Shown: in pieces, positions 11,511 to 40,190 of the stretch
Position numbering within the stretch: position 1 is the first letter of the stretch
Layout of the letters: each line of letters starts with the position of its first letter
Assembly (NCBI RefSeq): GCF_000003605.2
Contig: NW_003145287.1
Location: forward strand, 158,369 to 198,723
DNA: 40,355 nt
DNA from: Saccoglossus kowalevskii
Taxonomy: Eukaryota > Hemichordata > Enteropneusta > Harrimaniidae
Direction: 5' to 3'
Made by a program: the position numbers and the translations under genes
Notes under the pieces: generated by a model
Told to the model about the DNA's origin: nothing
Seen by the model: only the letters and a program-made list of their open reading frames with translations
Database searches by the model: none

Positions 11511-11513
11511 AAG

Positions 11514-16284: not shown

Positions 16285-16600
16285 TCACAATATGAGTTTG
16301 TATCTATTTTGAATGAAATTGGTCAATGCAAAGCTTAAAATTTCAGCCATATTCTGTAACTGAAAATGACCAGTTGTGCGTGCTGTGTCTTATAATACTG
16401 AGTATAAATTCCAAGTTTGAATAAAATTGGTCAATGCAAAGCTTAAAATTTCAGCCATATTCTGTAACTGAAAATGACCAGTTGTGCATGCTGTGTCTTA
16501 TAATACTGAGTATAAATTCCAAGTTTGAATAAAATTGGGCAATGCAAAGCTTCAACATTTTCAGCACTACTTTGTGATCAAAAATTAAATATTTTGACCA
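16285..16600. repeat. Tandem array, 108-bp unit, about three copies
   Basis: The word 'g(g/t)caatgcaaagctt' recurs at 16321, 16429 and 16537, exactly 108 bp apart. The central copies are nearly identical, running through 'aaaatttcagccatattctgtaactgaaaatgacc', 'agttgtg' and 'gctgtgtcttataatactgag', then 'ccaagtttgaataaaattgg'. The first and last copies are more diverged. There is no coding potential. The phrase 'ccaagtttgaataaaattgg' resembles phrases in the other repeats of this window. Confidence 0.9.
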
Positions 16601-18075: not shown

Positions 18076-18226
18076 AAACCCCAAAAAATACATTTGTTGT
18101 GCACTGGATCCTTAAAATCATACTTATTTTCACTATCTTTGTAATTTATGCATGCACCACAAATAGACCATGACCTAATGACTGTTCCATACCTTACTTT
18201 CCTCATCTGTGTTTTATATATTACAG

Positions 18227-18437
18227 GATATAAAGGTGAATAGCTGAAATTAATCCAATAATATCTACCAGGTGTGTTCCAACACATTAAGAAGGCTACC
18301 TAAGCAAAACACTGGGACTATACGAACGGACTATAAAAACTGAAATGCCAGGATGAGTTTTATTCGCCATAACCTTACCCAGTAGGAAGTACCAGAATTA
18401 CTCTGCAGATCACAAGACTGACAAGAGAGTGCCAAAA
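18227..18437 (+). promoter_or_regulatory. 5' region of the first LRR gene: candidate splice acceptor, TATA box and short upstream ORFs
   Basis: Two readings are possible. A long pyrimidine-rich tract ends in 'atattacag' at 18226, a good acceptor that would make 18227 the start of the coding exon after a 5' UTR intron. Alternatively, 'ctataaaaac' (TATAAAAA at 18332-18339) could be a TATA box, giving a start near 18360 and a short unspliced leader. Two tiny upstream ORFs lie before the main ATG: 18345-18356 (3 codons plus stop) and 18353-18385 (10 codons plus stop). The second would be translated only if transcription starts upstream of it. Confidence 0.45.
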
Positions 18438-19505
18438 ATGACACGACTTGAAACAGCAATCGCGTTATCACTGCCATGTGCGTTTCTACTGATCGTAACT
18501 TTGACACAAATATCCGCGTGTCCATCAATGTGCACATGCAACGAAACGATGGACGCTTTGGTCGTTGACTGCAGCAGTCAGAACTTGTCGACCATACCCA
18601 GCACAGTACCGTTGAACACAACGCATCTGATATTTCGAGATAATCAACTTGAGACACTTGAGAGCCTCGATTTCTGTTCGGGATTACAAAAACTTATATT
18701 TCTGGATCTCAGTTGGAATGATATCCTGCAAATAGAAGAGGGCGACTTCCTTAACTGTAACGAGGTCAAGTATTTAGATGTCAGCTACAATAATGTGCGA
18801 GTGCTACCTACAAATTCATTTTGGGGACTTCAGAAAACAGAACTGCTTGACTTAAGTGGAAACAAAATCTACGACCTAGATAACGGATCCTTTCTTGACC
18901 TCCTTAAAATAAAGGAACTCCGTCTTCATGACAATTTGCTTAATAATGATATCGAAAAAGCACTAATAGCCAGAGATACTTTAAAAATTCTAGATTTAAG
19001 CAAAAATAGAATTAAAAACCTAAAAAATACATTATTTGACAACTTGATAAATTTAACCACACTTTCTTTACGTACGAATATCATTAGTGTAGTGGAGGCT
19101 AAGGCATTTTCTAACCAAGAAACACTTGAAAATTTAGATTTGTCGTATAACCCTTTGTACTGTCTGCCAGAAGACACCTTTGACACGTTGATAAATTTGA
19201 ACTATTTGGAGTTAAGCGCAGACAGTCTAGCCGCTATCGTTAAAATGGCTGATAGAATGAACTACACAAACTATTGGTTCAAGGTGATGAGGAACATGAA
19301 AGGCGTCCTAATGGAGATGCCCGGCTATCAGAACGGGACCAACATGTATACCAATCAAAAGATGGGAATCAGATACATGGACGAAGTCTCCACCAGTAGT
19401 GCAGCCGTACTCAATCTTCAACAACCAATCAACTATCAACATGCCTACTTGTATCGTCGCCCGAATTCAGATGAATCACAAGATGCAAGTCGTGAAAATT
19501 ACTGA
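18438..19505 (+). CDS. Secreted leucine-rich-repeat protein, single coding exon (LRR gene 1)
   Basis: The predicted protein has 355 residues. The first in-frame ATG is at 18438; a GTG nine bases upstream is not a credible animal start, and the frame is closed by a stop at 18354. Residues 1-27 form a signal peptide (ALSLPCAFLLIVTL core). Residues 28-45 are an LRRNT cap, CPSMCTC then a cysteine at 45. LRR1 spans about 61-86 and seven 24-residue LRRs follow to 254 (LxxLDLSxNxI type). A final half-repeat from 255 leads into a C-terminal block: W280-F281, M287-K288 and GIRY at 310-313. A Tyr/Asn/Gln-rich tail completes the protein. There is no LRRCT, transmembrane segment, GPI-like end or TIR domain. 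N-glycosylation sequons (for example N35, N49, N60, N149, N205, N275, N299) fit an extracellular protein. Its closest relative here is 35229-36473. The ligand and role are unknown; a recognition or adhesion role is only an inference from the LRR ectodomain. Confidence 0.92.
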   Translation: MTRLETAIALSLPCAFLLIVTLTQISACPSMCTCNETMDALVVDCSSQNLSTIPSTVPLNTTHLIFRDNQLETLESLDFCSGLQKLIFLDLSWNDILQIEEGDFLNCNEVKYLDVSYNNVRVLPTNSFWGLQKTELLDLSGNKIYDLDNGSFLDLLKIKELRLHDNLLNNDIEKALIARDTLKILDLSKNRIKNLKNTLFDNLINLTTLSLRTNIISVVEAKAFSNQETLENLDLSYNPLYCLPEDTFDTLINLNYLELSADSLAAIVKMADRMNYTNYWFKVMRNMKGVLMEMPGYQNGTNMYTNQKMGIRYMDEVSTSSAAVLNLQQPINYQHAYLYRRPNSDESQDASRENY

Positions 19506-19578
19506 TGATAGCGTCAATTCCGCATCAAATAGTTCTGCAAGTTCATCCATGTAAGAAAAAGTGTAATACTTAGTTTTC

Positions 19579-19584
19579 AATAAA
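19579..19584 (+). terminator. Candidate polyadenylation signal (AATAAA) of LRR gene 1
   Basis: A canonical AATAAA lies 74 nt after the stop codon (ttcaataaaaaaag). It is the first such hexamer downstream and gives a compact 3' UTR. In AT-rich DNA such words are common, so the distance is the main support. Confidence 0.5.
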
Positions 19585-22500
19585 AAAAGTGCCTACTATT
19601 ATTAACATTTGGCTGACATTTCACAAATGAAAACATGAATAGGGATAGGATCCTGTAGTCAAATTTATGCATAAGGATGAACTAGTTTTTCTTTTGTCAG
19701 TGTTTGTTTCAAGTTGTGTATATGACATTTTTTTGTAATCTTGTTCATGTCACATCAGATTAAAACCAGACTCAAGTTGATACTGGCTCTCAAGTTATCT
19801 TGTAAGTAGAAATATATTTGATGCACAGAGTTTGACCTTTTTAAATTGAGCAGGCGTCCATTTTCACCACCAAAATTTATAAAATCGCCTTATAGCCCAT
19901 AGAATAATTACACTGACGTCTCTGTTTCTGATGTCTTCCAGGGTTCGGAAGCCACTGAAACAAATGCAACACATTTCTGATATTTTGCCAATGTATCCCA
20001 TGTTCTCAAGCTTCAGATCTGTAGTTGCTAAGCAACAATGTGTGTGATGTGAATTTTGTATAAACTATATACGAGAGAGAATACAACAAAACAGTCTGAA
20101 TATACTATACTCCCAAGATGGCTTTCCTCTAGATTTTGAATTAAAAAAAAAAAAAAATTTTAAAGTGATTATCATTGTCAACATAAATTTTAACTTATTA
20201 ATAGTTGAATCTGACTGTTAAAATTGGATATACGAGGGATATATATTTTTTTGAAAGCAAGTTAGGTAAAAAGCTACCTAAATGTTAAGTTATGCTCAGA
20301 CTGTACTGTTTACTACCAGCTACACCAAAATAATTCACAAAATGTTTTTGAGATAAAAAAAAAGTGAAACAAATAAATGAAACTAAGGGACAGTACAAAT
20401 AACAGAATTGACATCATTTTGATTTCCATAGAAATATGTCATGGTTTTATATACGCCATTCAATACCACCTAAAGGGGGCACTCTTCAATATGTACGAAT
20501 AAAAGCCAGCAGTATAACAGATCAACTATAGATGGCGCTGTTGTCCAAATTTCATGAATAGTGATTACATTCTTTTTGATTTGTTTTTTTTAGAAATTTT
20601 ATGGTAAACCAGATAGTAAGGTACCATATTTACTCTATTAGAAGAACTTATGAATTGAAAATTGCATACATAGTAAAGTGATAGAGCTAGAGATAAAAGT
20701 CATTTACAAAACAGGGCTCCCTCTAGAAAAATAAATGTTTTAGTCATTTCCTAACCAAAACAATTTATTTTTCGCCAAAAATTTAGTTTTAGCTACTAGT
20801 TTTAGCCATTATTGATGACGGTGTCCAAATGACGTCAAATACACTTCGGGGTAACCCAAACCTACTTTGAAAAAGTCTGCACAATCGTTTCTGAAAATCT
20901 GCACATGCGCATATGGTAAGTCTGTACATGCACATTAACAACATTGCATAAATGAAACCCTATGGCTATGATGAAACTTCTGAAAGATTGTGACATTATT
21001 TCTTGGAATTATTTGAGCCAAATCGTTAGATTAGACCTGACCATTTTTGGAAGAAAAAAAGCTTTGAAAACATTTCCAAGTAAAGGCAATACAAATCTGA
21101 CCCCTTAATTCTGAACACAGAAATATGTGATGGTGCCCTCTACGTAAATTCTTCCCTAAATGTATAATGAACAGCGCCATCTAGAGACAAACAAAGACTC
21201 CTCCCTATTTTAAGCTCTGAAACCAATGTTTTGTATATGCAAATTTGTTTGTCAACTTTGAATAGTTTTTGCTTTTTACTTGTTATTAAATCTGATTTAC
21301 AACTTAGTTAACGTACTTAAGTCATAAAAGTGACCAGGTAATACAAAGAGGGCAGTCACACTCAAGTAAACAAGAAACTATTTATCAGTCCGGGCACACA
21401 CACAGTCACATTTGAACCGGAAAATGATTGTCGGTCTTCCTAGTAAAAGACTGCAGTGTAAGTGTGCTCTCAGATGCAGTGTAACGTGCCGTACATGTCT
21501 GTGAACTTGCTTTCAAGATTCAAGTTGTTGAAACTTTAACAGCTCATCCAAAAACATAAAAACAAGGTAAGACGTTGATATACTATCTATTGGTTTGTTG
21601 TCTCTTAACTCTTATAACATTCTAGTCAAGTTTTGCAACAATTCACAAAGCAAGCCCTTTTTTCATAATTTTTCAACAAATTTGATCAAGACGGCTATGT
21701 AATGTAAAATTACATCAATTTGGCCCAAAATTAACAAAGAAACTATAGAAAGTTACGAAAAAATTATGGTGGGAAAAATGATATCAGTCAATACAACTGA
21801 TGTGTTAACCTTGGACTAGAGCATGTATCTCAAACGAAATATGAGAAACAACGGTACCAGACAATATCAGACAAGTACTGTACATGTTTGTAAGTTGACA
21901 AAAGGTAATGCTGGACTACTGGGTAAAATTACAGTTGACAGAGTTTCTGATTATCTGAGAAGTTAATCAGCCAGACAGCAGCTCTTCAATAGAAGTATTC
22001 CATAATTACCCAATATAAATCTTCAAAGGTCAGTGTTCAAATCAAAGTTTTTCCCACACTACCCTTGGCTGTAAACTGAAACTTGACAACCACTGAATAA
22101 AAACTGAATGTCAAACTGTGGTAGTTTAAGACTGCTCTAAGTAACCTGACTGTTATAGAACGTTTAAAATTTGCACATATATTCCATGAACAACTAGTTT
22201 CTGCAGTCTGCACCTAATGGCTCTAAGCTGTTCAAACAGCATGCAAAGTTGTGCAAAGCGATTGCAAAGTTGGTTGATTTGCATGTTTATTTGAACTAAG
22301 CTGTTGTCATATCGCATCATGAAGTTATAAAGTAGAAAAATGAATGAAATCCAAGTGAAAGCTTCCTATATTAGCAAATGGATGGATGTACAAAACAAAG
22401 AAAAGTAATTCTAATTTAGTTATCAATGTCAAGCATAATTGGAATACAAGACTTATTAGAAATGACAATCTGAACTAACTATTCTCAAAACCATGTCACT

Positions 22501-22818
22501 TTACCATTAATTAAACCAATGACACAGTGTATATCAGACAAAAAATACTTTACCAATACCAATCAAATTTTTTTTTTCATTAAATTAAACAAAAATCACT
22601 ATTCACTTTGTACCTTTTAATAGTATAGTATACAAATATTGAGAATTACTATCCCCTCGTGGCTGCTGTCGACAAAAACCTCAAAATACGCCAATGTGAA
22701 AATCAAAACTGACATCTCGAGACTATGAATAATCTTTTAATTCAGCAGACATAATGTCATTTGCTCTTACGTCACACAATGAATGTAATGATCGATATAA
22801 ATATACCTTACACATTGA
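19585..22818. other. Sequence between LRR gene 1 and the second dispersed repeat; no coding gene seen
   Basis: A 14-nt word, TAGATGGCGCTGTT (20529-20542), recurs inverted as AACAGCGCCATCTA (21170-21183). A 'cagggctccctcta' word at 20713 resembles a hAT-type transposon end, but I find no partner end. A strong plus-strand donor (aacaag/gtaaga, GT at 21567-21568) ends a stretch that could be a noncoding first exon of the second LRR gene. Otherwise the sequence is AT-rich without recognisable features. Confidence 0.4.
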
Positions 22819-23220
22819 GAACAAGCAGCCTGTGGGCTGAGATAGCTGCGCTGTTAGCAATGCACATTTCAATTAAAGAATTCAGAATATCATGAAATGA
22901 ACAAATCTGAGAGAGGTCCACCTGTAGGACATATTATATATCAAAGCAATCTGACTTGTGGTTTTTAACAAAAAGTCCAAAGTATCGCTTTTTACCAAAA
23001 TGACAAAAATATTCATCAAAATTAGAGAATTGAAGATATCAACTCGAAATGAACAAAAATCTAAGAGAGGTCTAGCCGAGGTACATATACACCAAGTATC
23101 AAAGCAATCAAGCTTGTAGTTTTCAAAAAGCTGAAGAAGTAACAAGTTGACATGGACGATGACGGACAATCACTCATATGATAAGCTCTGCTTGACAAAG
23201 TCTACAGTGGAGTTACAAAT
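22819..23220. repeat. Dispersed repeat family, copy 2 (~400 bp)
   Basis: This is a full-length partner of 11514-11932 in the same orientation. It starts 'gaacaagcagcc', contains the two related halves ('aaatgaacaaatctgagagaggtcca' near 22895 and 'aaatgaacaaaaatctaagagaggtcta' near 23046) and ends 'ggacaatcactcatatgataagctc' then 'ggagttacaaat'. The A-tail seen in copy 1 is interrupted here. The minus-strand open frame inside it is a by-product of the repeat. Confidence 0.8.
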
Positions 23221-26200
23221 AATTATAACTCAAGACACACTTCAAATAAGTTACAGATTTTATTCTTTCACAACCAGCTACACACTCATCACAGCATCCA
23301 AATAAAGCTAAACATGTTTCACAAGGAGATAAGTGAAGTCAGGGATTGCCTTCGTGTACGCCCCCCAAACATTATTTCTCATACTTTTTGAAGAAAGACC
23401 CTGACTGAAATGTCTGTGAGAACTGTCACACAGGGTATTTGTAGGTGTATAACATAATAAAATCAGACACAAATGTGTCCCTCTTCGTGCAGTGTTATTT
23501 GAAACTTCAAAACACAGGCAAGCATAAATCACTGAAGAAAAGAAAGGTATTAGGTTTATTCCTACTTTTGACATGAAGGATATTCAAAATTAATGAAGCA
23601 GTCACTTGGTAACATTATCACAGGGTACAATGAACAACCTCAATGGGGTTCAATCAAGATATATATTGAAGTTCAAACAGGGGACAATGTCAAAGAGAGT
23701 ATGATATAGACATCATTCGTCAGGCAATTTATGGGGTAGTTGTCGCAGATGGTTCTAAAATTTCGTATTTACCATGAACAAACCGTGCGCCGGGTGAAGA
23801 TAAAAGCTAGGATATATCTACTGCACATTTCAGACATCTCCAGTTACCAGCTATCAAACGTTAATACGACAATTGATCCCCCTATGCCTTATGCAAGTGA
23901 CAAGCTATATTTGGAAATATGACATCACACCCAGAATTGTAAAACGTTTGTTGCATTTCAGATTCATTTGGGTTGGTTAATTTCATCATACACAAGCGAG
24001 CATTAGACGCAGACTCAGGATGCAGACACAATGAGAACGTGAAATTGTATAAAAGCGGTTTAAGGGTATCGATAACGACCGTGACTCTGTGAGTATGCAG
24101 CCATACACAACACATCATGAATACATATTACAGAGCAACAATTACTGTACAGTTTTTTTTTTTCATAATTTTTCAGTATTTTGTGAAGATTACCTAGATC
24201 TTATTTTAACTTGTGTATGAAAAACAGCAGAACAGATAATGACAAATGTGTTTATTTTATAAAAGCAATAGTGAGTAACAATGCAGCTAAACAGATTAGG
24301 GTACCGTTCCACTCATGTTCAAGTGTGTCACTTAAAAGTGAAGTTTACATTGTGAAATTGCAGGTTCAATTACGGTATCAACTGTTTGATTTAACCCTGT
24401 AACAAATAGTGCCAAAATAACCATAAATAACCTAATCTACATGTTGGAGAGTTATTATTTTTTGAAAATTAGTGAACAGTAATTAGTGAAGTTAGTTTCA
24501 ACACTAAGATTTGCTGCCAACATTTTGCACAATTTAAAGTCATTTTCTACAACTTCGTTCTTGATTTTACTATCGGCTACACAGTTCATAATAAACATTT
24601 TGGGATAAAAAGAAATATGGGGAAAAAAATCGTGTAGGTTATTTTTTTTATGAAAGATAAAAATAAAAAATGTTTAAGGGTCAAAAACTACTTTTTACTT
24701 TTTTTTTAATCTGTTTTTCTAAAAGTACTAAAAGGACTGTTTATTATTGTTCATACACCCACAGACTAATTCTGTGCTGTAACATTCTGTCTGAGTAGAG
24801 TTCTTATGAGAGAGAGTTATTCATAAAACCTTGACATTGAAAACAGACAGTCTGATGAAACAAACTGTAACTAATTTAAGTTTAACTCGTGAAGTTCAAA
24901 GTCCCCTGAAAAATGACATCCTACGAACTCAAAAGCAGTTGACATGAGTTGACAAAATTGTTAGTAGCGGGTAAATGTCTCAATTCTATTGCCGGACATG
25001 CTTGATTAAAAAAAGCAAACATACGTAATATTCAAAGCATGCAATTACCTTGGTGAAAGAAAAGAAACACAGACTTTAAAAACATGTTTGGCATGAGGGT
25101 ACAGTTCGACAACTGGCCCTTATGTAATTAAGGGACAATAGGGAACAGTGGCAAGACTAGACATACTAGACATATCCACTTCAGACAAATGTAAGTCCAA
25201 CACAAAAGTAACTAAGTAAATTTGGTTATGGTAACTGTTATTTAAACCAGTTTGTTTTATACTTTGTTGAAAGGTGGATCTAATTGAAGACTTTGTTACA
25301 AGTTAATAGCTTGTGACGCTATTAGTGATTAAGACAGGTCGTGCACAAAACCAGTTACAGATGCAGACTGAGGTAATGTTCTTTAATTCTCTTTCCTTAG
25401 AAGAGAGTGCCTATATTGTCATATTGCAGTGTTTGAAATCTTAGTGTGAATACAACGCAAATACATTAAGGAGGTATTGATGGAGACACAAAATCCTGGA
25501 AAGTGTGTTAGAAGCAATTGCTGATAGACTTGCATCTCGTAAAGTAAATGCATCCATCGATATGTACGATATGTACGTGTAAAGCTTGAATGTAATCAGT
25601 CCCAGTTGAGATATAGAGCCAAATAGATCAACGAACGGACAGACCGACGGACGCACAAGACACACATGTTTCAAATTCGACTCGGATCTCTAGGAAATTG
25701 TGATTGACAGCTGTGTTATTATAGTGAAACATTCTAGTGTGAGTAGGAGATGTGGGACAGAAAGAAAGAATTACTTTCTTAATTCACTCGCTACTCATTT
25801 TATCTTGCTACTCAGTATTATTTCAAAAGTCATTTGTACGTCTTCCTACTGGCATTCCCACCAGTTTGAACTTTGAATAAAAAACTCAAAACACTGGAGA
25901 TAAACATACTATAACACAATAAGTTGATGATATGTTACCATGGTAACAACACTTGGCCAATCAATCTTCCTATGCTTTCCTTTCACACTATCACAAAGCA
26001 TGCTAATTGGATAGGAAAAGAATATACTATTATGTTTATAGGGGTGGCAACTAGATGCGTACAGGTGGGTAGGTAGGGTTGAAGTTGGTTGTATTTTGCC
26101 AAGCAACTGATCTAGACCAAATTAGGTGCTGGTGCTGTTTCCATGCTGACTGAGAATAGGTGGTCATTTTGAAAAATCAAAAGCTTTCAACTTGAAAATT

Positions 26201-29200
26201 TCTTTGTTCAGATATTCAGTAAGTAAATTACCAGAGAAATTATACATGAAAACATATTGAAAAGAAAAATAATGAAATTCAAAAGATAATAAAATTTAAA
26301 ACTTGCCTGTTACATTTATCACCATTGGTATTCCCTTATACTAATCCTACGATTAAATTCATAACGCTGGAGACATATTTCATTTATTGACTCAATATGC
26401 ATTGATAAACTATTAACTCCCTCAATCATAGTAATCTTATTAAACTTTCAAAATCCTCCAAGAAAATAATTAGAAAATAGATGATTTTGATGAGAAAACA
26501 ACAGCACGATTCGCTCTCGTCAAGTTAGGAGTAATCTCAGATTATCAAAAGATCAAAATATTGCAGAAGTTGAAATTAAAAATTAATGTAGATTGTTTTA
26601 TGTTTTATGACTGTCCGTGAAGTGTACTCGTCTCTCAAACACAAATGCATATTTCACAGGTGATTACAAAATTGATAATCCAATTATTGAAACTAATATT
26701 CAGGTTTAAAACAATATTACCCCAGATGTTTCCAACTGTTTTCTCTGCTTTGCTACAAATTTTTTTGTTTGGTATTCTCTGTTCAGTAGCAAAATGGAGA
26801 AAACAGACAGAGGCAGCTGGGTTATCACAATATCTAATAAAGCCAGAAAAATAAACACAGCCAGCAATCAAGAGTGCACAAATATTAATAAATATGGAGT
26901 TTTATAATTAAATATCGATAATTTGTTTTTTTTGAAATGACCGATAATTTGAGACAATCCGCCCTCAACAAGTATTCAAAATCTGTTGACTAGTTTTATC
27001 TTTGCCATTTGATAGTGTCAAATTTCAATGATACGTACTAGGGCATGAAAATGTCCCGACTCAGAGACCCCAATACATAATATGAATTATTATGTAGACT
27101 ACACAGCATGCATTGTGTGCTTCAGTCAAGTAGAGTACGTTTCACATCAACCGTGAAATTACACCACCCACCCTTTATTTTGATGGGACCTACGTTTGTA
27201 GAATTATTTTGTAGTCATCTTTGAAGCATCAGGGAAAACACTTCTGGGGCTTGAACAAAAGTTGGACAGATAACAAATCATAATTAGAATTCACATACAA
27301 ATAATACTTTGTTTTGTTTTTTTCAAAATAGAGGGCAGTATACCAAACTAAACCGACTTACCATTTCCATATTGTCTTGCTGGCTGAGAACTAGAATAAT
27401 TTTCACTATTACAAAAATTTGTATATGTAATTAATTATAATATTAAGTTTGTCCAAATATAATTATCTTGTAACTAATTGGATTTTGGAGCAAAAACAAA
27501 ATTTAAAGAAACTGTTGGTTATAAATAAGGTATGGCAGGAATTTTTTCAGTTTTAATAATTTTTATAATCTATGGTGATGACATCTCATATTTGGATCTC
27601 TAATATCATAAAGGGTATAAATAGCATATATTTATCATCTTAGTTTTTGATAAGATTAAACAATTAAATAACTTATTGTTTTTCTCATTTGTCTTTTTTT
27701 CTGTTAGTAGCACATGCTTTAAATTACACATGTTTTATAATTGAAATAAGCAAAACTTAAATATTCAGTATACAACAAATTCAAGTTTTTGTTAACTATC
27801 TTCAAAAATTAAACTTGCACGTCCATTGGACAAGTTGGTGAATAAAAGTACCTGTCCTAATTGATGATGTACATGTCCCTGGCAAAATGAATTAAGAAAT
27901 ATTATTTGAAATAAAATTTGTAAAACTTTTACAAACTCTGAAAGCAACGTTTTTTTTTTTACATAAGCAACTTGGGAGCACCAGCATTTGGTCAGTTAGT
28001 AATAACTATTATCTTTATTCACCTGACCACAGAGACAGGCAATTTGTACATTTACCTGTCCCAGGTAAAATCTGCCTGTCTGGGACATATTCTCAAGCCT
28101 CGAGTTCAACTCTTGCATAAACTGTCATTTAGATATTTCACAAACTCTTTCATTGACCTCATTGCTGACCTTTTACTAGAAATCTTCAGTTTCTATTCAA
28201 TTTTCAGAAAATGTGATGATATTCAGCACCATGGCAACCATTCTATCAGTCCAAAAATTATGAAAGTAATTTTGAAAAATATCTTTATAGAATATTTGGT
28301 GGAAAAATTTATAACAAATTAATGATAGTCTGTGAGAATGAAAAATGAAAAAAGAATGTTAAAAATAGAGCAGTATGCCACTTGATATAGTTCAATAGGA
28401 AACGTTCACTTGTCCCACTTTTCAATAGTTTCAACAAAATAGAAGTAGTTTTCTCTTAATGAATGAAAACATGTGACCCTATATGACCTTTAACCTTTGC
28501 ACAATACCTGCTGTGGTAGTGGCAAATTGTGATTTCTCTCTAGGGAGATTAAAAACAAACCTGGGTAGCATCTTTGTTGAATCAAGACCACTTAAGTTGT
28601 TGGTGATTATAATTATCAGTTGAGGTATCAATGCTTTAGAAATTATGTGGGGAGGGGGGGGGGCTGTATAAAATAGACATTTGTGGTGAAAGTGAGGCCA
28701 TTACTTTAATGTGGTGTCAATTTGTGCCTAGTTAAGGAGTCTACACTGTTTATCCTCTGCTGTTAATAAAATGAATAGAAGATATGTGAAACACAAGTGA
28801 TGTTTTGCCAGCATGCCGTTCTCACGCAACATGGCTACGTAGAGTGGAATTAAGGTTTAAAACCTAGTCTCAGCCTAGATGAAGATAACGATCTTGATTA
28901 TTTTTATAAATTTACAAAATTGGGATTATTAGCTGCACTGTGTAAGGTATCAGATCAATTCTGATGGTTTAAGATCTATGACTGTATTTATGGTAAGAAC
29001 ACATGTTTTTGTAATGATCAACTACATTTTAGAAATTCACAATATTTGTCTTTTTATATTCCCTCCTTTTGTGGATTGGCAGCAAATTATCCATCTTCTT
29101 TTCACAACTACCATATTTTACTGATATAAATGTTTGCGGTTTCAGAATTTTCAGGCACTGTGAAGACAAAATGTTGTGAACGTCACTGACACTGTATTGT

Positions 29201-30477
29201 ACAACACCAGAAATTTTTTTTAATGCAAACAAATTTTGTGATTTTTACTGACTCTCACTGTCTTTGAAGTGTTTCACAGTACATGTATATCAAAATGACA
29301 ATTTTTTTTTTTAGTGACAGGAAATTTTGTTAATTTTCTGTAAAATCATGCAAATATTATCGAACAAATTTTGAGTTGAAGGTTGCACTATAAAATGTAT
29401 GTAGGGAATGTGGAGATTAAAGCATGCATACTTACACATGAGTTTAAATATGGAATGTTAAATTTCACTGCTTGCATTTTGGCAATTTGAAGGTGTCTGC
29501 AGTGAGTGAATATTACAAAAATCATCATAATGAAGTCAAAAATCCAAGTCCAAGAGTAGAATTTTGAATTTCTGGAATTACCGTTTTTTTTCAGACCTTT
29601 TCAAAACCTAACTGAAATGTATCTCAAATTTAATACCCTTTGGGTTAAGATCTTTTTAGGTATTTAAGACTTACGTGGGAATCTTACTGCAGAAGCCATT
29701 GGAATTTTTCATCGACTTGAATTTCAGAATTATAATCACTAACACCAATAACAAATATAGTCACTATCGTGATGAAAATTTGAATAATGCATTAATTTTT
29801 TGAGATATTGATTTAAAAAATTACAATGAGCTCTCATTGATGAAACGATTCATAATCAGTGGATGCTGTGAGAATAGCACACACTGTAGATATGGATAAA
29901 GAAAATTATGCTAAATTGCATGGTAAACTTTTAACAATATCTGTCACACGAATTGAGAAATATTAAAATTACGATTGTGGTATTTAGAAATTGCAAACGA
30001 GGCAAAAAATTATTTACGAATCTAGCTATTATAAAAAAATCATGTGCCAATTAAATATGGGGTAGTTGACAATCAATAAGTACATAATGCTGAACAAGAT
30101 CTCTCACGCTATTTATGCTTTGCAGCGCAGGTGTGGTACACTGTGCATGAGAAATACTATTTATTTGTAAGATTGAAAAGGAAAGAGTAGGTAAAACACA
30201 ACATATTTTACATTTGTGTTTTGGAAAATCTGTTGATGTTTGGAAACAAGTAATTCTTTATGTGTTTATGTTATAAATTATTTACAATTCCATCAATTTA
30301 TAATTACATATTATTGTACATGTATATTACTGATCAAATATAAATGACAACGATCAATAAATGTTTCACCACAAAATCTCCCGGATGTTCATATTTTAAA
30401 CTATGTATTGGATTTTAAATATGTGAAAGCATTTTTTGGAGAAATTATTGGACATGCACGTATATTGTAGATATAAA
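23221..30477. other. Long intronic stretch with no recognisable gene
   Basis: I examined the open frames at 23308-23574, 25441-25674, 26645-26854 and 27972-28322. None shows a domain, a signal peptide with a plausible mature protein, or good splice sites. Minor features are T-runs near 24152-24160 and 29300-29311, and a G-run around 28651-28663. No tRNA gene, transposon end or tandem array was found. Much of this stretch may be decayed repeats that I cannot recognise by eye. Confidence 0.4.
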
Positions 30478-30697
30478 CCTTTTTACAACCAGACTTTCTC
30501 ACCCAAATTATTCTGCACTTTTTCTTGTATTCTTCTATATTTCTGGAAAGGAACCCTAATTTTGGAGCCAACAGACAAAATTTGAGTAAATTTTCTGCTT
30601 TTACTCAACAAATTTTGCTATTTTTATCCCAATCCTCGGATGGAAGCACGGACTATAAACAGGATTATTTGTGATGAAAAGAGGGATGAAAAGGATA
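30478..30697 (+). mobile_element. Diverged copy of the piggyBac-like MITE
   Basis: It aligns with 36599-36822 in the same orientation. Shared blocks are 'atatttctggaaa', 'gaaccctaattttggagcca', 'acagaca', 'tttttactcaa/ttttactcaac', 'actataaacaggaytattt' and 'gatgaaaagaggga'. Its ends are decayed: the left reads CCTTTTTACAACCAG, the right 'gatgaaaagg', and no TTAA remains. It is clearly older than the 36599 copy. Confidence 0.75.
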
Positions 30698-31287
30698 ACT
30701 CAATGAGTATAAAACACTGATTATATTTCCAAATACTTACAGATTTAAAACAAAGTCTGATGGTATTCTTAGTAAAGAACCTCAGTAAAAGCATTATTTT
30801 TATTATTTTAACATTTTACTAAAACATAAAGTTTGCAGTTATTATTATGAATTATTCAACTGAGAAGATATTAATACCATATTTCATTATCTTGACAAAG
30901 ACGGTATTTGACCCCAATTTTATTTCTCCCATACAAATTTTCTTTTACTGTTTTTTTTTTTTTACAAATAGTTTGTTTTTTTAATAAATGGTTGGGAGGA
31001 ATTAGTAACTAGGAATTAGGAAAAGTACCAATTTCTCTATGTTTAATAAATAGGCGAAGGTTTGCCATCAAAAGCAGTTCTGACTGATTAATATTATTTT
31101 AGAATTTTGCGTGGATGTTAAGAATTTTCTGTTGATGTTAAGATGTTAGCAGAAATTTATACAAACTAGTGATCATTGACTATGTTTATTTTAACTCAAT
31201 TACAGATTTAATTAATACACAAGTAAAATGTTACAATTTTATACTAAACAATTTATGTCATTAAAAACAAAATTTATCAAAGTATAT
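30698..31287. other. Short intronic stretch, nothing recognised
   Basis: AT-rich sequence with a T-run at about 30950-30963. I see no gene or repeat here. Confidence 0.4.
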
Positions 31288-31357
31288 CATTGTGCTGCCC
31301 AAATCTGTCACATTGTGCTGCCCAAATCTGTCACATTGTGCTGCCCAAATCTGTCAC
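31288..31357. repeat. Minisatellite, three 23-bp units
   Basis: The unit 'cattgtgctgcccaaatctg' plus 'tca' starts at 31288, 31311 and 31334, exactly 23 bp apart, with perfect copies, and then breaks at 'catggtg'. It is a local slippage-type repeat without visible function. Confidence 0.95.
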
Positions 31358-34300
31358 ATGGTGATGCAAAGATGCCACACTGATCTACCAAAATTGTACA
31401 TGTCTCTCTCTGCTGAAAATATGGGCGAAATATTCTTAGTTTCACAAATATTTTTAAATTCATAAACAATGTGAGCAGAATATTACTAAAAGATAAAATA
31501 AAAGCATTAAATTCAAAACATAGCATTATCATAAAACTGCTGTCTACACTTAGAGATGTTTTATTGACAAGCTGAAGCCCATTAATGGAACACATGGCCA
31601 ATGAAAGTGGACCCTTTAACTTAACGATAATTACCAATGCAATGAAAAGGCTCTAACTCAGTCAATGGTTTAATCAGCATTGAAATTGGAAAGTTTACCA
31701 TCACATCCTGCCATTGAAATCTCAACTGAATGACTGAATAAATATGGCCTAAGAAAGAGGTCTTGAGAAAACAAAGCAGGTATTTTTGTTTCCTGTTGAG
31801 GGGAAATTGGATTTTAATGTTAGACATGTAATTGGGAAAAGACGGCAGCTAACTGCCTCAACACATCCCATACATGTATGGCTTACCAAAAATATTTTTT
31901 GGAAAAACTATAGTTAGTAAGTTTGTAAGGTCCAGATAAAAAAAAGTATTCATGTTTCTGATCTTTGTTTGGAAATTAAAAATGTGCATGTCATGTCACA
32001 GCTTCCTTTCTCAGGTTTTTGACAGACATTTAGAAAACACTAATGAAAAAAAAAATATTTTTCTGACCCACAATGTAGACACAGTATTACATGTATTGTA
32101 CTGTATCGTATTGTATTGTAAAACAGAGAAGATTAAATGCTGACTGCGAGAAATTTAGAAATTTTTCTCACATGTCAAGGAAGTGAAATTTACACTACTT
32201 AATTTTGTTATTTTCCCAGACTCCGGAAAATTAGTTTCTAGCAAATTTAAAGCTGTACAAGTACATTGCGTTAATACTTTGAGTTTAGTGTCAATGTTAT
32301 TGTTGGTATATACCTTCAGGTTATTATAAACAGAGTGGGCTTTATTAAACCGTTTGGACATCATGCAGGATGAGTGGGGGATGGCCATTTTGAACATCAA
32401 GACTGTAATGTATACCATCCTATTATTTTTTGGTAAATTGTGTTTGACACAGTTTTATCAGCACTATTTAATCACCATCATTTTTTGCATCTTGCCTGAT
32501 TTTATGTGTTTTTTAATTTGTTTCTATAATTTTGAACTAAATAGACATAATTTCCTATTATCTACAGATCTTGATCGAAATGTTGAAAATAATATGAAAA
32601 AAATGTGGGTTTTTATTTTGTGAAAGAAGACAAAAGATGACTTCGGTCCTCCAAAGATCGTTTTCATGAGATTGTCCCTAAATAGATCAACATTTCAGGA
32701 TTTACATTATATTAAATTATTCTTCTCTTAAAGTACAACTAAAATCTGTTTTTAATAGTTTTGGGCAAACTTTTCTGTTGGCTGTACATATATACATTAT
32801 ATATATATAAGTCTCACACAAAAACATAATTTCTTGAAAATAAGCTTGCAATACCAAAGTGTTGGAGCAAACATGTGTTACAACAATATAGGAGTCTATA
32901 CATCAAAATCTGTACAGCACATGTTTTCATTGTGTATAACCAACATGTACCCGCCATCACAGGGGGCGACCTTTGCGCAGATTAAAGACATGTTTCATCT
33001 ACCCTGGCAACCATCCAAAGGATGTGATTGGCTACATCTGGAATGTACACTGAATACTGATACTGATCCCCATCAATGCAATGCTGATCAATGATCAGTA
33101 GACCTATGATGTTGGTGACGATTTGAAAATTTGACGACTCAGTGGCTCATTGTAAACCCATGGTAGGAAAACAAAACTTTTCCATTATCTCGTATCCATA
33201 AAATCAGTTGTCCTGATGTTAACATATTTGATATATTCTCTCATTTACTGCCATGCTTTTGTCAGAATTATAATTTTTTTTACAAATACGTAAAGGTTTG
33301 TAATCAAATGATGAAGGAGAGAGTACAACTATCTACTTATATATATTTTTAGAAACATTGTCGATGACTCAATGGTTTGTTTGATGCATAAACGAGAATA
33401 AAATATCCCATTATGTATTTGTTTGAAGTGCATATTCGTATTGTAATTTGACCACATCAAAATAATTAAAAAAATACAGAAAACTGTTGAAATTTCACAC
33501 GAATTCTGATGGGAAGAGTTCTCTATTCATGAATAGGATAAACAGAGATGTTATAAAAATACTACTTCACACTCCAATGGCATGTAATACAATTCCCATG
33601 TTGAGGATAATGTTGTAAAAGAAAATAAATCTACTGTGTTTATACAAATGAGTCAACTTATAATAGTAATTGAACACTGTCAGGGCTATGTATAAATTAC
33701 GTCAATAAAAAAAACTTTCCAGGGAGCAAAATTACAGGATACAGAGGGTTTTTTTACTCAAGGTTTTCATCTCGACAGAATAGCAGTGCTTGAACTTCTC
33801 ATTCAAAAGGTAAAAATTTGTAAAAACAAATTTTAGAGATTTTTTTTGATGACTGTAAATCTCTTTAAATTTTGCAAAAGATAAATGTTATGATGCAAGG
33901 AGATAATCACAGCATTTTGTAACAGTGAGCTATCACTTTGGATAATTAAGATGTGAAGTCACAGTGACTTTTGTGAAGATTAATTTTCATAATAGCAGCA
34001 AAAACATAACATTTCGAGCGTTTTGGTGGCACATCTAGGCCACATTTCTTACATAAAATAGATTTATAGCTTCCTTGAATTTAATGGTATTCCTTGAATG
34101 ATACGGATCTCATGTAATGTATGCACGTACATGTAAAATACATTGTTTACTAAAAATTCAACCAATCCCTCTATGATGACTATCACTTTTAAAATTCGTT
34201 CTTAGAATTCCAATTTACAAATTCAGAAATGGTGGTGTGACATCATATAGGGTATAAATTAATACTATAGAGTTAGTTCAATGTCATTCAACCAGCAAAC

Positions 34301-35216
34301 ACTTCAATTTGAAAAAGTGGCAGTCACAAATATGACATCACCTTCAGAGGTGATTCAAAGCATGTACATGTACATATAATATCAGTGGGGGACCACAAAG
34401 CAATCACAATTATATATTTGAATTTAAATTAATGTTGAAAGCAGGTATTTACAAATATTTATAAATGTATTTATAAACAATAAAAGGAATACACTGTAGT
34501 ATAATTTTATCTTAAACATTTTTTGCCTGTGAGCATCCTGAATCGCATGTACGCACAATCTTATTTGTTTGTTTGTTTGTTTGTTCTGATACAAGTTTTC
34601 ATTACTTTCTGATAAAAAGCAAATTCACAGATTATGGAATAAATTTTATTTTTAGATTTTATTTTTTAAGGATGCGAACAACGCACGCAATAGCTGCTTT
34701 GAAATTCAATGTAATATTTAAAAATAGAAATGACGTACATAGTCAAAAACAAAATTTTTACATATTTTTTTTTACTGAATATATCACATGTGTCTAATTC
34801 TGCATCTGTCAATGTCAAGTTGTTATTACTGTGCGAGTTAGAGAGAATTACTTGTTCCAGGAGATGTTACGATTGACGCCCTAAGACATCAATCACGTAC
34901 TTAAAACGGGACTATTGGACAATCAATTCACACTGAGCAAGACCAAAATCAACTTTTGTCACCTTTACCAAATAGAACTCAGTCTTATGTTTTTTCATAA
35001 ATCTTGATTAAGAACTCCAGTCAACAGACAATGATGTCTATTTGGTTCAAAATAAAAAAAAATATCAAAAAATACACATTTAAAAAAATGTTTCACCAAA
35101 AACTTGGCAGGAAAAATATATGTGAATTAAACTTTCCAAAATAAATTGGAATGTCATTTCAATACGTACTATTGTTTTCTCATTTTATATATATCTATCT
35201 TTATTTTGCTTTATAG
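31358..35216. other. Sequence upstream of LRR gene 2; no coding gene seen
   Basis: Open frames at 31308-31637, 32354-32623 and 32834-33094 have no recognisable domain or supporting splice sites. An AT dinucleotide-rich tract lies near 32786-32810 and a (TTTG)5 microsatellite at 34564-34585. The last 50 bases form a pyrimidine-rich tract that ends in the acceptor of LRR gene 2. Confidence 0.4.
34564..34585. repeat. (TTTG)n microsatellite, five units
   Basis: Five uninterrupted TTTG units. A simple-sequence repeat with no further context. Confidence 0.9.
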
Positions 35217-35228
35217 ACCTGAGAAATC

Positions 35229-36473
35229 ATGGCCAAGATGAAAGACTTGTCACCAGATGTAAGATGGGTGTTAGGCATATACGTATTGTATAGCATACAT
35301 ATAGCTCGTATTAACGCATGTCCACAAGACTGCACGTGTGATATGAGCAGCTCTGTGAAACTCATCAATTGTAGCAGTGTTGGGTTGCAGAGCGTACCAA
35401 CACAAAGCATTCCCGGCAGCGCAAAGACGTTCGATCTCTCAGATAACAATATTACACAAATATTAGAAAATGAGCTCCCAAGTCGCATCGAAACGCTCGA
35501 CTGCAGCCAGAATGAAATCATACTTGTTGAGGAGCATGCTCTGGAAGATCTTATTGATTTACACCACCTGGATTTTAGCAAAAATAAAATTGAAGTCGTA
35601 AAAACAAGTCTGTTCCTAAATAACGTCAACATGGAAATCCTGGATTTGAGCGACAATGAAATTGTTGACCTTCCATTGAGGATTTTCTCAACGCCAATAC
35701 GACTTGTACAATTAAACCTACGTGACAATAACATAATCGGCCTATTCGATTATCTATTTAGTATGCTTTCAATGTTGCAGGTCCTTGATCTTAGCATCAA
35801 CAATGTAACGACTATTCCCGTCATGACTTTTAGTGGACTTATACAGCTGCAAGAATTGTACTTGCAGCATAATCGGGTGACCAATTTGTTAAACGAGGTT
35901 TTCATGGACCTTTCACAGCTACAACACCTGGATTTAAGTTTTAATGAAATTACCACTATAGAAGAGTTCGCATTTGATGGATTAGCTGAGCTTAAGGTAT
36001 TAAACCTCAATGGCAACCAGATATCAAGGATAAGCCACTGCTTTCACAACACCAACAGCCTGGTTCCGGGACTAAAGAAGCTACAGCAGCTTCACGTTAA
36101 CAGTAATCTGCTGCGTATGTTATCCAATAACACATTTGAGAACTTGGATAAATTAGAATTCCTGGATATCAGCGGGAATGGCTTATCGCAGCTAGAACAG
36201 TATTCATTCATTGGGGTAAAGACCCTAAGAACGCTGCTGCTGAGCCACAACAATCTGCACCTTTTGCCAAGTAAACTATTCGACGACCTCGAACAATTGG
36301 AGTATATAGAATTTGGGACGAGTGAACTGATGTCAATTGCGGATACGCTCAAGGAGGATGATAACAGCTCAGTCTGGTTTTCAGTCATACAACGAATGAA
36401 AGACGTGATATTGCCAGAGCATGGTAGAAGACAAACTGCCTCGGAAACAACTGGAATCCGATATTCCAAGTAG
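35229..36473 (+). CDS. Secreted leucine-rich-repeat protein, single coding exon (LRR gene 2)
   Basis: The predicted protein has 414 residues. The ATG at 35229 is the first in frame; an in-frame TGA lies three codons upstream, and a strong acceptor (ttattttgctttatag, AG ending 35216) lies 12 nt before it. The coding exon therefore probably follows a 5' UTR intron. Residues 1-30 are a signal peptide. The LRRNT cap is C31, C35, C37 and C48 (CPQDCTC motif). Twelve LRRs run from about 64 to 357, mostly 24 residues each; repeat 9 (256-285) is enlarged to 30 and holds C271. After a terminal half-repeat (358-370) comes the block shared with LRR gene 1: W383-F384, M390-K391 and GIRY at 409-412, just before the stop. 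It has no LRRCT, membrane segment or TIR. Sequons at N47, N74, N192, N300 and N379 fit secretion. It is a paralogue of 18438-19505 with four more LRRs. Its role is unknown. Confidence 0.93.
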   Translation: MAKMKDLSPDVRWVLGIYVLYSIHIARINACPQDCTCDMSSSVKLINCSSVGLQSVPTQSIPGSAKTFDLSDNNITQILENELPSRIETLDCSQNEIILVEEHALEDLIDLHHLDFSKNKIEVVKTSLFLNNVNMEILDLSDNEIVDLPLRIFSTPIRLVQLNLRDNNIIGLFDYLFSMLSMLQVLDLSINNVTTIPVMTFSGLIQLQELYLQHNRVTNLLNEVFMDLSQLQHLDLSFNEITTIEEFAFDGLAELKVLNLNGNQISRISHCFHNTNSLVPGLKKLQQLHVNSNLLRMLSNNTFENLDKLEFLDISGNGLSQLEQYSFIGVKTLRTLLLSHNNLHLLPSKLFDDLEQLEYIEFGTSELMSIADTLKEDDNSSVWFSVIQRMKDVILPEHGRRQTASETTGIRYSK

Positions 36474-36598
36474 TTTCCTACTGCCAACAGTTCACACTGC
36501 ACCACTGATGAACTTATTTGTGTATCGCATTTGATTGCTCTTTTCAATAAGCTAATTAACATTCATAAGCAATATAAAATTATGCAAGTGCTTATTAA

Positions 36599-36822
36599 CC
36601 TTTTCACCACCAGAATTGTTCAGCACTGTTTTGTTTATGTTCTTCAATATTTCTGGAAAATGAACCCTAATTTTGGAGCCAACAGACACAATTGAGTCAA
36701 TTTTAGGTTTTTACTCAAACAATTTGGCTATTTTTGTCCTAATCTTTGGAAGGAAAGTGCAGACTATAAACAGGACTATTTTGTGAGTTTGTGATAAAAA
36801 GAGGGAACTGGTGGTGAAAAGG
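36599..36822 (+). mobile_element. piggyBac-like MITE with perfect inverted repeats and TTAA flanks
   Basis: The element starts CCTTTTCACCACCAG and ends CTGGTGGTGAAAAGG, a perfect 15-bp inverted repeat. It is flanked on both sides by TTAA (36595-36598 and 36823-36826). TTAA target duplication with CC...GG ends is the hallmark of the piggyBac superfamily. At 224 bp without an open reading frame it is non-autonomous. Two older relatives lie at 11357 and 30478, so this copy inserted more recently. It lies 126 nt after the stop codon of LRR gene 2 and may be transcribed in its 3' UTR; a canonical AATAAA occurs beyond it at 36916-36921. Confidence 0.88.
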
Positions 36823-36826
36823 TTAA

Positions 36827-38866
36827 AACATATGATGAAGCCATAAAATGTTGACACCAATTTGTTTAAAGGAAATTATTCCCTAAAAAAACCTTTAATC
36901 ATTCATTGACCTTAAAATAAATATTAGTAAAATTATTTTATATATTTTTCTGTCTGAATATTGAAACTTTGAAATTTTATTTCAACAAAGACCAACTTTT
37001 TGTTGATGAAACGTGCCACAACCGACATAATATTACTTTTCAATTCAATATGGAATTTTCATTCATCTCACTGAAATGCATGTAAAGAAAGTGGAAATTA
37101 TTTTGCACTACTATTTTATTGCTGGGATATTTCAGAGATGAAAGAATTGAATTCAAATTAAAGGGGTCAAAAAGGTCAAGATAGATATTATTTGGTTTTG
37201 ATAACAATTACACACATGTAAAGAATGAATACATGGAAAGATGAGATGTTCATATAATAGGAATGACAGTGGGGAAAGCCAAAACTGTATCACTTTCATT
37301 CTCTATTACTTGTGTGTAAAATTTGAGTCTCTGCGTTTTTTTTTTTTATTTCTTTAGATGTCAGCATACAGAATATGAAAAGAACCAGTATGTCATATTT
37401 GTTTGAATAATAGTTCCGGACATGTAGTATCAGGATATAGCAAATTCTGTCTCTAAACTGTCTCCAGTTGTCCCTTTTTAATTTGGATGATTAAGGCAGA
37501 AATTTGGTCATAAATCACATGACAATGTTTATTATGTACAATAATGAAGCTGGTGTCTCATGAAAGAACATTATTTGGAAGTCACGTTTTTTGAGAAACG
37601 TGTTCTAATAGTTATTTTAGAACAGTACCATAAAACACAGTGTTAATGAAAATGCCCCATAGTACAATTTATTGCAAAATGAATAAATTTGGGGTATTTT
37701 CATTCATGAGTAGGCTTCTCCCTCAAATAACTTGTCATGCATGTGTATGTCATTATAGATTGTTGATGTACTATCGAATGATGCATGGAAGGGAAGAAGC
37801 ATAAAAAAGACTTCAGACTTTGTCTGAACAGAAAAAATTAATAAGATCTATTGCAATAACGCTTGAAGGTTATCTGTATATTCCTACACTTTTTTTATTT
37901 TTATACATTACTGTAAAAACAACATTTGATAGAATTGAACCAATTCAGGATTTATTTTAAGTTATTTATTCGCATGTCAGTACTGAAACTGATGCATTTT
38001 TAATTTATGCGAAGAAGAGAAAAATTGAACACTGCATTATAAAAGTGACGCTTCTTACATGAAGAGGACAAGAGAGGTTTGATTTCTTTTATTTATATTC
38101 TAAATTCACTGCCATAATGTTTATTTCAATCCTTCTGATAAATGTGACTATTACAATCAAAACAAGTTTTTGATTGTTTGTATTGATCATTAAGAAAGTG
38201 TCAGCTAATCAGTATTAAAAGTGATATAACAATCATATATTTAGTTTTATTTCTTGTTAATAATGCAATTTTAACACCAGAATTAATGCTGAGAAAATTA
38301 CTGGTTGTATCCACCAGCCAATGAGGGCGCTGTCTAGTTGTTAGATAAAAGTTCCCAGAACATTATAATGTGATGTCATTTGTTGACATTTTTGTCTATC
38401 TCCATGGTGATATGACTGACAAAACATGTAGTGTACAGATCAGCACTAGATTACAATCTAGTGTGACAACTTTATCCAAACATTGTTTCATTATTAAAAC
38501 TGTATTTCATAAAACATTCAAGCAAAGAACAACTACATCTACAAATGTACATATTGGTAGTACGGTAACTACTGAATGAACGGCTTTCAAAAAAATGAAA
38601 ATCAATCACAGCAATCCAAACACGTCTTAGAAAGAATTGCACATATGTATTTTTAAAACAAGATGGCCATCAGTCGGCCATCTCTGATCTGACTGTAAAG
38701 TGATCTCTCCCCTGACTTATGAAAATAATGAATCACAAGGGCTAATTATCACTCTCAATTCAGATCATTTTGAGGAGATTTAAGTAGCATAACTCCACTA
38801 ATTTTTTACATTATAGTGTCCAAGAATATTAAATCAATTTGATTGAAGAGGAGTGGCATTGGCGCG
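36827..38866. other. Intronic sequence downstream of LRR gene 2; no gene recognised
   Basis: AT-rich. An AATAAA word at 36916-36921 could be a polyadenylation signal for LRR gene 2 if its 3' UTR includes the MITE; the nearer AATATA at about 36571 is a weaker alternative. The open frame at 38370-38579 has no recognisable content. The last ~120 bases ('ccaagaatattaaatcaattt' then 'gaagaggagtgg') resemble the 3' part of the repeat phrases seen elsewhere and lead into a CA-rich tail. Confidence 0.4.
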
Positions 38867-40106: not shown

Positions 40107-40109
<3 letters not shown>

Positions 40110-40183: not shown

Positions 40184-40190
40184 CGATATG

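Follow-up and report, generated by a model that had tools for sequence, protein, structure and literature searches.

Two putatively secreted leucine-rich repeat genes on the opposite strand of a long ELYS intron in Saccoglossus kowalevskii

A contig of the hemichordate Saccoglossus kowalevskii carries two leucine-rich repeat (LRR) genes, here called A and B, within a single intron of a gene on the other strand, and the question is what kind of proteins they encode, how they are related to each other, and whether they belong to an expanding family of recognition molecules. The window analysed is the whole stretch of 40,355 nucleotides (NW_003145287.1, positions 158,369 to 198,723), and all coordinates below refer to it. 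The reading we prefer, with a probability of roughly 0.6, is that A and B, two independent genes with a single coding exon apiece that lie antisense to ELYS within one of its introns, encode secreted LRR-only glycoproteins and are old, diverged representatives of one small family.

Coding sequences, domains and genomic setting

The features of the two genes are as follows.

18438..19505, plus strand: gene A, single-exon coding sequence of 355 aa (ORF; Pfam LRR_8 and LRRNT; codon log-odds)
18438..18518, plus strand: gene A signal-peptide-like N-terminus, 27 aa (hydropathy 2.07 in a 19-residue window)
18519..18611, plus strand: gene A LRRNT, C-x3-C-x-C-x10-C (Pfam PF01462, 31.3 bits, cut-off 25.8; cysteine positions)
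18612..19190, plus strand: gene A, eight LRRs (Pfam LRR_8, E 5.4e-25; units parsed by hand)
19191..19502, plus strand: gene A partial terminal repeat, cysteine-free C-terminal module and 42-aa polar tail (homologous to the B tail)
19579..19584, plus strand: gene A candidate polyadenylation signal AATAAA, 73 bp after the stop (motif scan)
35216..35222, plus strand: gene B candidate 3' splice site (AG ends at 35216), then an in-frame TGA at 35220-35222 (motif scan)
35229..36473, plus strand: gene B, single-exon coding sequence of 414 aa (ORF; Pfam LRR_8, E 2.2e-64; codon log-odds)
35229..35318, plus strand: gene B signal-peptide-like N-terminus, 30 aa, weaker than that of A (by eye; below the 1.9 hydropathy threshold)
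35319..35408, plus strand: gene B LRRNT, C-x3-C-x-C-x10-C (cysteine positions; Pfam 14.1 bits, E 0.036, below cut-off)
35409..36290, plus strand: gene B, twelve LRRs, the ninth the longest (Pfam; units parsed by hand)
36291..36470, plus strand: gene B partial terminal repeat and cysteine-free C-terminal module, ending G-I-R-Y-S-K (genome search)
36916..36921, plus strand: gene B candidate polyadenylation signal AATAAA, 442 bp after the stop (motif scan)

The preliminary description of two complete reading frames, each with a signal-peptide-like start, an LRRNT and eight or twelve LRRs, is borne out by the ORFs, the Pfam matches, the cysteine positions and parsing by hand, the last of which gives 8 (A) and 12 (B) full LRRs, each series followed by a terminal partial repeat. 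The open frames extend over 382 (A) and 416 (B) codons, with in-frame stops ahead of both ATGs, and from base composition the numbers of runs this long expected by chance in the window are about 6e-10 and 4e-11, respectively. In-frame codon log-odds are 0.122 (A) and 0.148 (B) compared to a mean of -0.082 (sd 0.036, maximum 0.002) for 76 noncoding stretches; the score was trained on 23 LRR ORFs and its signal is partly one of LRR amino-acid content. A score confined to synonymous codons (0.029 for A, 0.050 for B) fails to single out the true frame, because other frames score as high or higher (up to 0.031 and 0.087). The candidate splice site and TGA just ahead of the gene B ATG at 35229 fit a 5'-UTR intron followed by a single coding exon.

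Several observations bear on the fate of the proteins. The signal peptides were judged by hydropathy and by eye, and in the two proteins the hydropathy threshold is exceeded only at the N-terminus of A; both tails are polar, and neither the scan nor the tails give any sign of a membrane or GPI anchor. Pfam recognises extracellular-type LRRs with no other class of domain, and neither protein has an LRRCT or TIR match. The four-cysteine LRRCT is absent by Pfam and from the tails, which contain no cysteine, and the cysteines that join the last two repeats in the LRRCE of small leucine-rich proteoglycans (SLRPs) are also lacking; each protein has one late cysteine (242 in A, 271 in B) and no pair in its last two repeats. 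The combination of transmembrane segment and TIR that marks a Toll-like receptor was found neither by Pfam and hydropathy nor in the Pfam scans downstream, and hydropathy gives no single-pass transmembrane segment with a cytoplasmic tail such as marks an LRRTM. Those scans, in the three plus-strand frames, returned no domain in 19500-34400 or 36471-40355, the interval 34401-35228 lying outside them. The earlier claim that LRRCT, membrane anchor and TIR are all missing therefore agrees with the Pfam and hydropathy evidence, and both proteins are probably soluble and secreted, as judged from their sequences. ARAGORN and Rfam (at gathering thresholds) give no match anywhere in the window.

The host gene is ELYS, transcribed on the minus strand, and both LRR genes lie within one of its introns, on the opposite strand:

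39186..39413, minus strand: ELYS coding exon upstream of the long intron, 228 bp (phmmer to PDB 7r5j ELYS 578-649, E 6.3e-12; AG/GT boundaries)
1362..39185, minus strand: single ELYS intron, phase 1, 37,824 bp, containing genes A and B (flanking exons abut at ELYS 648-649 and join in frame)
1257..1361, minus strand: next ELYS coding exon, 105 bp (phmmer to ELYS 648-681, E 0.0078, weak alone; AG/GT boundaries)

When joined, the two exons form one open frame, with AG/GT at all four boundaries. Pfam does not recognise ELYS at the right end of the window; further upstream on the contig there are two ELYS-bb stretches on the same strand, such that the ELYS beta-propeller and the region following it occur in order. 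The nesting of both genes in one minus-strand ELYS intron, as first described, is upheld by the exon matches, the in-frame join and the boundaries. It is most simply regarded as positional: the genes would have been inserted into a long intron, or duplicated within it, and would have no functional link with the nuclear pore.

A shared cysteine-free C-terminal module

Both proteins end in a cysteine-free module with the pattern W-F-x-V-x3-M-K-x-V ... G-I-R-Y. In gene A the GIRY is encoded at 19365-19376 and is followed by the 42-aa polar tail; the likeness between A and B extends up to this motif, which in B lies two residues before the stop. The A/B score for the module is 55, compared to a shuffle mean of 20.3 (sd 3.8), and none of 5000 shuffles reaches it. 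Neither tail has a Pfam match at E values up to 10, and the B tail gave a single, chance-level match to PDB ('adaptor gp14', E 0.3). The spacing of the W-F residues suggested a degenerate, cysteine-less LRRCT, a possible link that we do not claim: with a profile of two sequences (the A and B tails), local hhalign to 17 LRRCT segments from this genome stops at the last LRR, and a forced global alignment reaches into the tail with a probability of 76%. Helicity of the cap is weak, with a helical hydrophobic moment as high in 3.6% of shuffles for A and 23% for B.

From its sequence the module is potentially a new element. A bolder proposal is that extracellular LRR solenoids can be closed by this module as an undescribed cysteine-free cap, which would be confined to a secreted pair of hemichordate (or ambulacrarian) proteins kept together in the ELYS intron and would give animals a further mode of closing besides LRRCT, LRRCE and plain ends; we put this forward tentatively and think it rather doubtful.

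Relationship between A and B and size of the family

The two genes had been called close paralogues, but they share only 29% identity over 249 residues, and the likeness of their repeats is that of the LRR scaffold. At LRR positions that are neither scaffold nor concave there are 9/88 or 7/88 matches, depending on which of two registers is used, versus 105/1056 for all A-by-B repeat pairs; at concave positions the counts, which are small, are 12/40 or 8/40 versus 90/480. Off the scaffold, a repeat of A resembles one of B no more closely than any other two repeats would. Repeat-by-repeat alignment gives no convincing register and no particular kinship is evident between the LRR parts, such that the proposed shuffling of LRR modules is not supported. 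There is also no nucleotide repeat of at least 40 bases common to the two genes. The argument for common descent therefore depends on the shared C-terminal module and the location. The LRRNT cysteine spacing C-x3-C-x-C-x10-C was considered as a further sign of kinship and dropped, being present in 3 of 14 other LRR ORFs.

Comparisons were extended with 28 non-redundant LRR ORFs from 60 loci (30 of 50 matches with A as query and 30 of 60 with B). A tree of LRRNT regions from the 16 of 28 ORFs with the cysteine pattern leaves 12 of 13 inner branches open, the bootstrap not being settled. The best single-stretch match of A elsewhere scores 94.5 bits compared to 89.2 for its first stretch to B (55.6 for the second), and B has matches of 93.3 and 91.2 bits elsewhere compared to 60.2 and 50.6 for its stretches to A. 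A count of family members in the genome was proposed in the preliminary description; a search of the 572-Mb assembly with the B module (36252-36470) at E values up to 10 gives, among the matches listed, only A and B. With the B tail as query, A is found at just E 0.0026 with the best 2 candidates listed, so a third copy as diverged as A is from B could be missed. Among the matches listed neither gene occurs in a tandem array or as recent copies, and of 5 stretches in viral contigs that fit a pattern none encodes a relative of B. These sequences show us a diverged pair of genes, with nothing to indicate that the family is expanding or shuffling its repeats. The preliminary interpretation survives in part: the suggestion of a small family, probably soluble and sharing an intron of a host gene, is supported, and that of close paralogues with shuffled LRR modules is not. 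The B tail query reveals no expansion among the matches listed.

Alternative readings, likely function and known relatives

Two alternatives would change the gene models themselves. A and B could be parts of larger receptors, spliced into exons with an LRRCT or membrane anchor, as might be expected from the 26 other LRR ORFs, a P-x-C-x-C LRRCT motif being present in 17 of them and a transmembrane segment predicted in 18; GTRAG donors are present at 35259, past codon 10 of B, and at 19551, in the presumed 3' UTR of A. However, the scan, which was for GTRAG donors only, finds none in the latter half of the A or the B ORF, the shared tail runs to within two residues of the B stop, an AATAAA follows the A stop by 73 bp, and Pfam is empty in the downstream intervals scanned, all of which makes this very unlikely. 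Hardly probable at all is that either gene, or the pair, is a decaying or untranscribed relic, for although the B signal peptide is weak and synonymous codon use uninformative, the frames are fully open (355 and 414 codons), with LRR scaffold and tail kept despite very high divergence. It is unlikely, though less so, that the genes arrived separately, for example as retrocopies of different LRR genes. The LRR parts of A and B being no closer than unrelated repeats, the higher-scoring single-stretch matches elsewhere (A, 94.5 vs 89.2; B, 93.3 vs 60.2 bits), the lack of a joining repeat of at least 40 bases and the commonness of the LRRNT spacing all favour separate arrival, but the shared module, the same intron and the same strand fit duplication in place better.

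A reasonable if less probable alternative concerns function: A and B may be soluble pattern-recognition proteins in coelomic fluid or mucus, with a CD14-like relay to Toll-type receptors. Their predicted architecture equals that described for shrimp LvCD14L, which is reported to bind PAMPs and Tolls (PMC10178686), and five of six scallop LRR-only proteins are reported to have bound PAMPs (PMC5877582); by analogy, an immune role is possible. Architecture alone, however, cannot separate immune from other secreted LRR proteins, and a partner-binding, matrix or signalling role is somewhat more likely, because just two diverged members were found, with no expansion, array or recent copies among the matches listed.

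Under the preferred reading of a diverged pair of secreted LRR-only glycoproteins, we infer secretion, fold, function and origin as follows. Mature A would be about 38 kDa and B about 44 kDa before sugars, with a pI of about 4.7. Each would fold as a curved LRR solenoid, the N-terminus closed by a disulphide-bonded LRRNT and the C-terminus by the partial repeat and the cysteine-free, possibly helical W-F-x-V-x3-M-K-x-V cap in place of an LRRCT. A ligand or partner receptor may be bound on the concave face, as soluble extracellular LRR proteins generally do.

Similar proteins are described in other animals. The preliminary statement that extracellular LRR proteins usually carry an LRRCT is too strong, since 101 of 207 amphioxus proteins with an LRRNT are reported to have both caps (PMC4731796). 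LvCD14L of Litopenaeus vannamei, reported as extracellular, has a signal peptide, a putative feature of A and B too, and shares with them an LRRNT and LRRs without an LRRCT, but has 7 LRRs and a hydrophobic tail as compared to 8 or 12 LRRs and a polar tail with G-I-R-Y, the comparison being one of descriptions only (PMC10178686). LRRs are likewise the sole recognised domain of CfLRRop-1 to -6 of the scallop Chlamys farreri, in which there are 1-4 LRR domains and reported PAMP binding for 5 of 6, whereas A and B have 8 and 12 LRRs and are known from sequence alone (PMC5877582). Podocan and the SLRPs resemble A and B in having an LRRNT-type cap and are secreted, as A and B probably are; podocan is said to be without C-terminal capping. 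Canonical SLRPs differ in their LRRCE cap, in which the last two repeats are linked by a disulphide (PMC2637281). The amphioxus VLR-like Bf66946 has an LRRNT and LRRs with no other functional domain reported, but unlike A and B it also has an LRRCT and a hydrophobic region (PMC4731796). As to location, LRRTM1-3 lie on the opposite strand of large alpha-catenin introns with one or almost one coding exon, as do A and B in ELYS, but LRRTMs are vertebrate membrane proteins in another host gene, and A and B share a single intron (PMC3933685).

LRR-only proteins without an LRRCT (e.g. LvCD14L, podocan) are thus already documented, as are nested opposite-strand LRR genes in vertebrates, and the find is rather ordinary as it stands. 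For the secreted LRR-only class it supplies two more gene models, here from a hemichordate, and hemichordates are useful for tracing deuterostome recognition proteins. It also provides an invertebrate example of LRR genes lying antisense within an intron, beside the vertebrate cases described in PMC3933685. If the C-terminal module is new and conserved, it would be usable as a signature for a family missed by LRRCT-based searches.

Two LRR genes within an ELYS intron

Two plus-strand LRR genes, A and B, lie within one intron of the minus-strand ELYS gene, and the features that define this arrangement are as follows.

18438-19505, plus strand: gene A, complete open reading frame, 355 aa
35229-36473, plus strand: gene B, complete open reading frame, 414 aa
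18226, then 18354, plus strand: plausible splice acceptor, then in-frame stop, before the gene A ATG
35216, then 35220, plus strand: plausible splice acceptor, then in-frame stop, before the gene B ATG
39413-39186, minus strand: ELYS exon, matching PDB 7r5j ELYS residues 578-649
1361-1257, minus strand: ELYS exon, matching PDB 7r5j ELYS residues 648-681, weak by itself

The two ELYS exons have canonical splice sites, form one open frame when joined and are separated by a 37,824-bp intron, and the nesting of A and B is firm. Upstream of these exons, the same strand carries two ELYS-bb stretches (contig C3612:207074-208952; 49.2 and 43.5 bits), and Pfam gave no match over the right end of the window. 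Similar opposite-strand nesting is documented for LRRTM1-3 inside alpha-catenins, and an LRR gene lies inside 12 of the 19 nested structures reported there as absent in frog or chicken (PMC3933685). Among the matches listed in the open-licence literature on ELYS/AHCTF1 nested genes or LRRs, and on hemichordate LRR genes, none concerns this locus.

From base composition, open runs of such length are expected by chance at ~6e-10 (A) and ~4e-11 (B). In-frame codon log-odds are 0.122 and 0.148, compared to -0.082 (sd 0.036) in 76 noncoding stretches; because its training sequences were 23 LRR ORFs, the model also rewards LRR amino acids. Synonymous-only scores, 0.029 and 0.050, do not exceed those of other frames. 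Both products match Pfam LRR_8 (E 5e-25 and 2e-64), and parsing by hand gives 8 repeats in A and 12 in B, each with a partial last repeat. The LRRNT match is over the cut-off in A and under it in B, and C-x3-C-x-C-x10-C is present in both. Neither has a Pfam match to LRRCT or TIR, and nothing exceeds the threshold of a hydropathy scan except the N-terminus of A.

With an acceptor and in-frame stop before each ATG, both genes fit a model of a 5′ noncoding exon and a single coding exon. The only GTRAG donors are at 35259 (in B, after codon 10) and 19551 (about 45 bases past the A stop), and plus-strand 19500-34400 and 36471-40355 contain no Pfam domain.

Several repeats are also present. An 86-bp tandem array (17560-18075; six copies, 96% matches) contains six ATTTGCAT octamers and ends 362 bp before the gene A ATG; it may represent a minisatellite on the promoter side, or just satellite DNA. 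A 147-bp array at 207-756 has a ATGCAAATTAGGTAATT-like core similar, by eye, to the opposite strand of the 86-bp array, as if both were seeded by one dispersed satellite family. A repeat at 11390-11470 has inverted copies at 30580-30645 and 36689-36769 (89% and 82% complementary), one copy of the family being 3′ of gene B, and 11514-11831 and 22819-23130, with segments 83–86% alike, are probably an old transposable element.

Kinship of genes A and B

The preliminary description was correct and careful as to the two nested genes, their reading frames, domain content and intron, but over-read them as close paralogues with shuffled repeats. BLASTP identity is 29% over 249 residues. At LRR positions outside the scaffold and concave face, 9/88 or 7/88 match in two registers, no better than for all A-by-B repeat pairs (105/1056) or within A (28/308) or B (61/726); concave positions match at 12/40 and 8/40, against 90/480 for all pairs. 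Off the scaffold and concave face, the LRRs of A and B are no more alike than any repeat pairs, and neither close paralogy nor shuffling is supported. Judged from sequence, the genes are linked by what follows their last repeat, a cysteine-free module whose alignment scores 55 (shuffles: mean 20.3, sd 3.8, 0/5000 reaching 55); the highest scores of 26 other LRR ORFs are 45 with the A tail and 42 with that of B. Searching the B tail against the assembly (572,110,611 bases, 4830 contigs; E up to 10) returned only B and A (A at E 0.0026), a search that scored two candidates and that a third copy as diverged, or split by an intron, could escape. Together, A and B look like a strongly diverged family of two genes.

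Other LRR genes and the mitochondrial contig

Sixty fetched loci yielded 28 non-redundant ORFs, 26 besides A and B. A P-x-C-x-C LRRCT motif occurs in 17 of these and a predicted transmembrane segment in 18. Both features are absent from six: two short exons (L054 and L058), L043, which is truncated by the locus edge (ending near an LRRCT-like D-C-G-C outside the motif used), and L051, L053 and L055, which are without a signal-like start. The A/B architecture is therefore demonstrated in 0/26. Genome-wide, Pfam LRRNT (E up to 0.001) has 12 matches, including A and excluding B; six sit in short open frames (44–88 aa), so multi-exon LRR genes are under-sampled in this comparison. L004 and L006 (contig C1864, ~28.9–36.4 kb) form a close tandem pair; both are single-exon LRR receptors of 549 aa from the first ATG, with an LRRCT motif and transmembrane segment. 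They resemble each other much more than A resembles B, and are a better site to seek recent LRR duplication.

The only COX1 match in the assembly is on the 17,037-base mitochondrial contig (C4830; loci L066 and L067), where, with genes named by eye, COX1 runs antiparallel to most of the protein genes and ND2 comes after the large rRNA. Nine of the ten COX1 ATA codons align to the 7o37 chain (isoleucine 5, valine 2, methionine 1, leucine 1), and the single AAA aligns to lysine, like the reported S. kowalevskii assignment of ATA to isoleucine and AAA to lysine (PMC3121625). By eye, from translations, nd5 adjoins cob, an arrangement also described in Xenoturbella and in both hemichordates that were compared with it (PMC2697986). 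These features point to an enteropneust hemichordate, probably close to Saccoglossus.

Predicted proteins and the LRR-only class

Each product may be a soluble, curved LRR solenoid, closed at one end by LRRNT and at the other by the shared module, with a ligand bound by the concave face. The pI values (A 4.65, B 4.68) and N-glycosylation motifs (seven in A, five in B) are compatible with secreted glycoproteins. The hydrophobic moment of the module is equalled by 3.6% of shuffles for A and 23% for B, which suggests helical character in A and does not indicate it in B.

LRR-only proteins are described elsewhere. In a four-species survey 52/161 proteins of the LRR_Only class, which does not imply LRRCT absence, are secreted (PMC2235866); amphioxus is reported to have LRRNT in 207 proteins and both caps in 101 (PMC4731796), and podocan is said to be without C-terminal capping (PMC2637281). 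Shrimp LvCD14L, reported as extracellular, has a signal peptide, LRRNT and seven LRRs without LRRCT (PMC10178686). In scallop, binding to microbial molecules is reported for five of six LRR-only proteins (PMC5877582). An immune role for A and B, earlier raised as possible recognition molecules, seems rather unlikely, and the lack of visible family expansion argues mildly against it. A and B add members to a known LRR-only class, and their standout structural feature is the C-terminal module.
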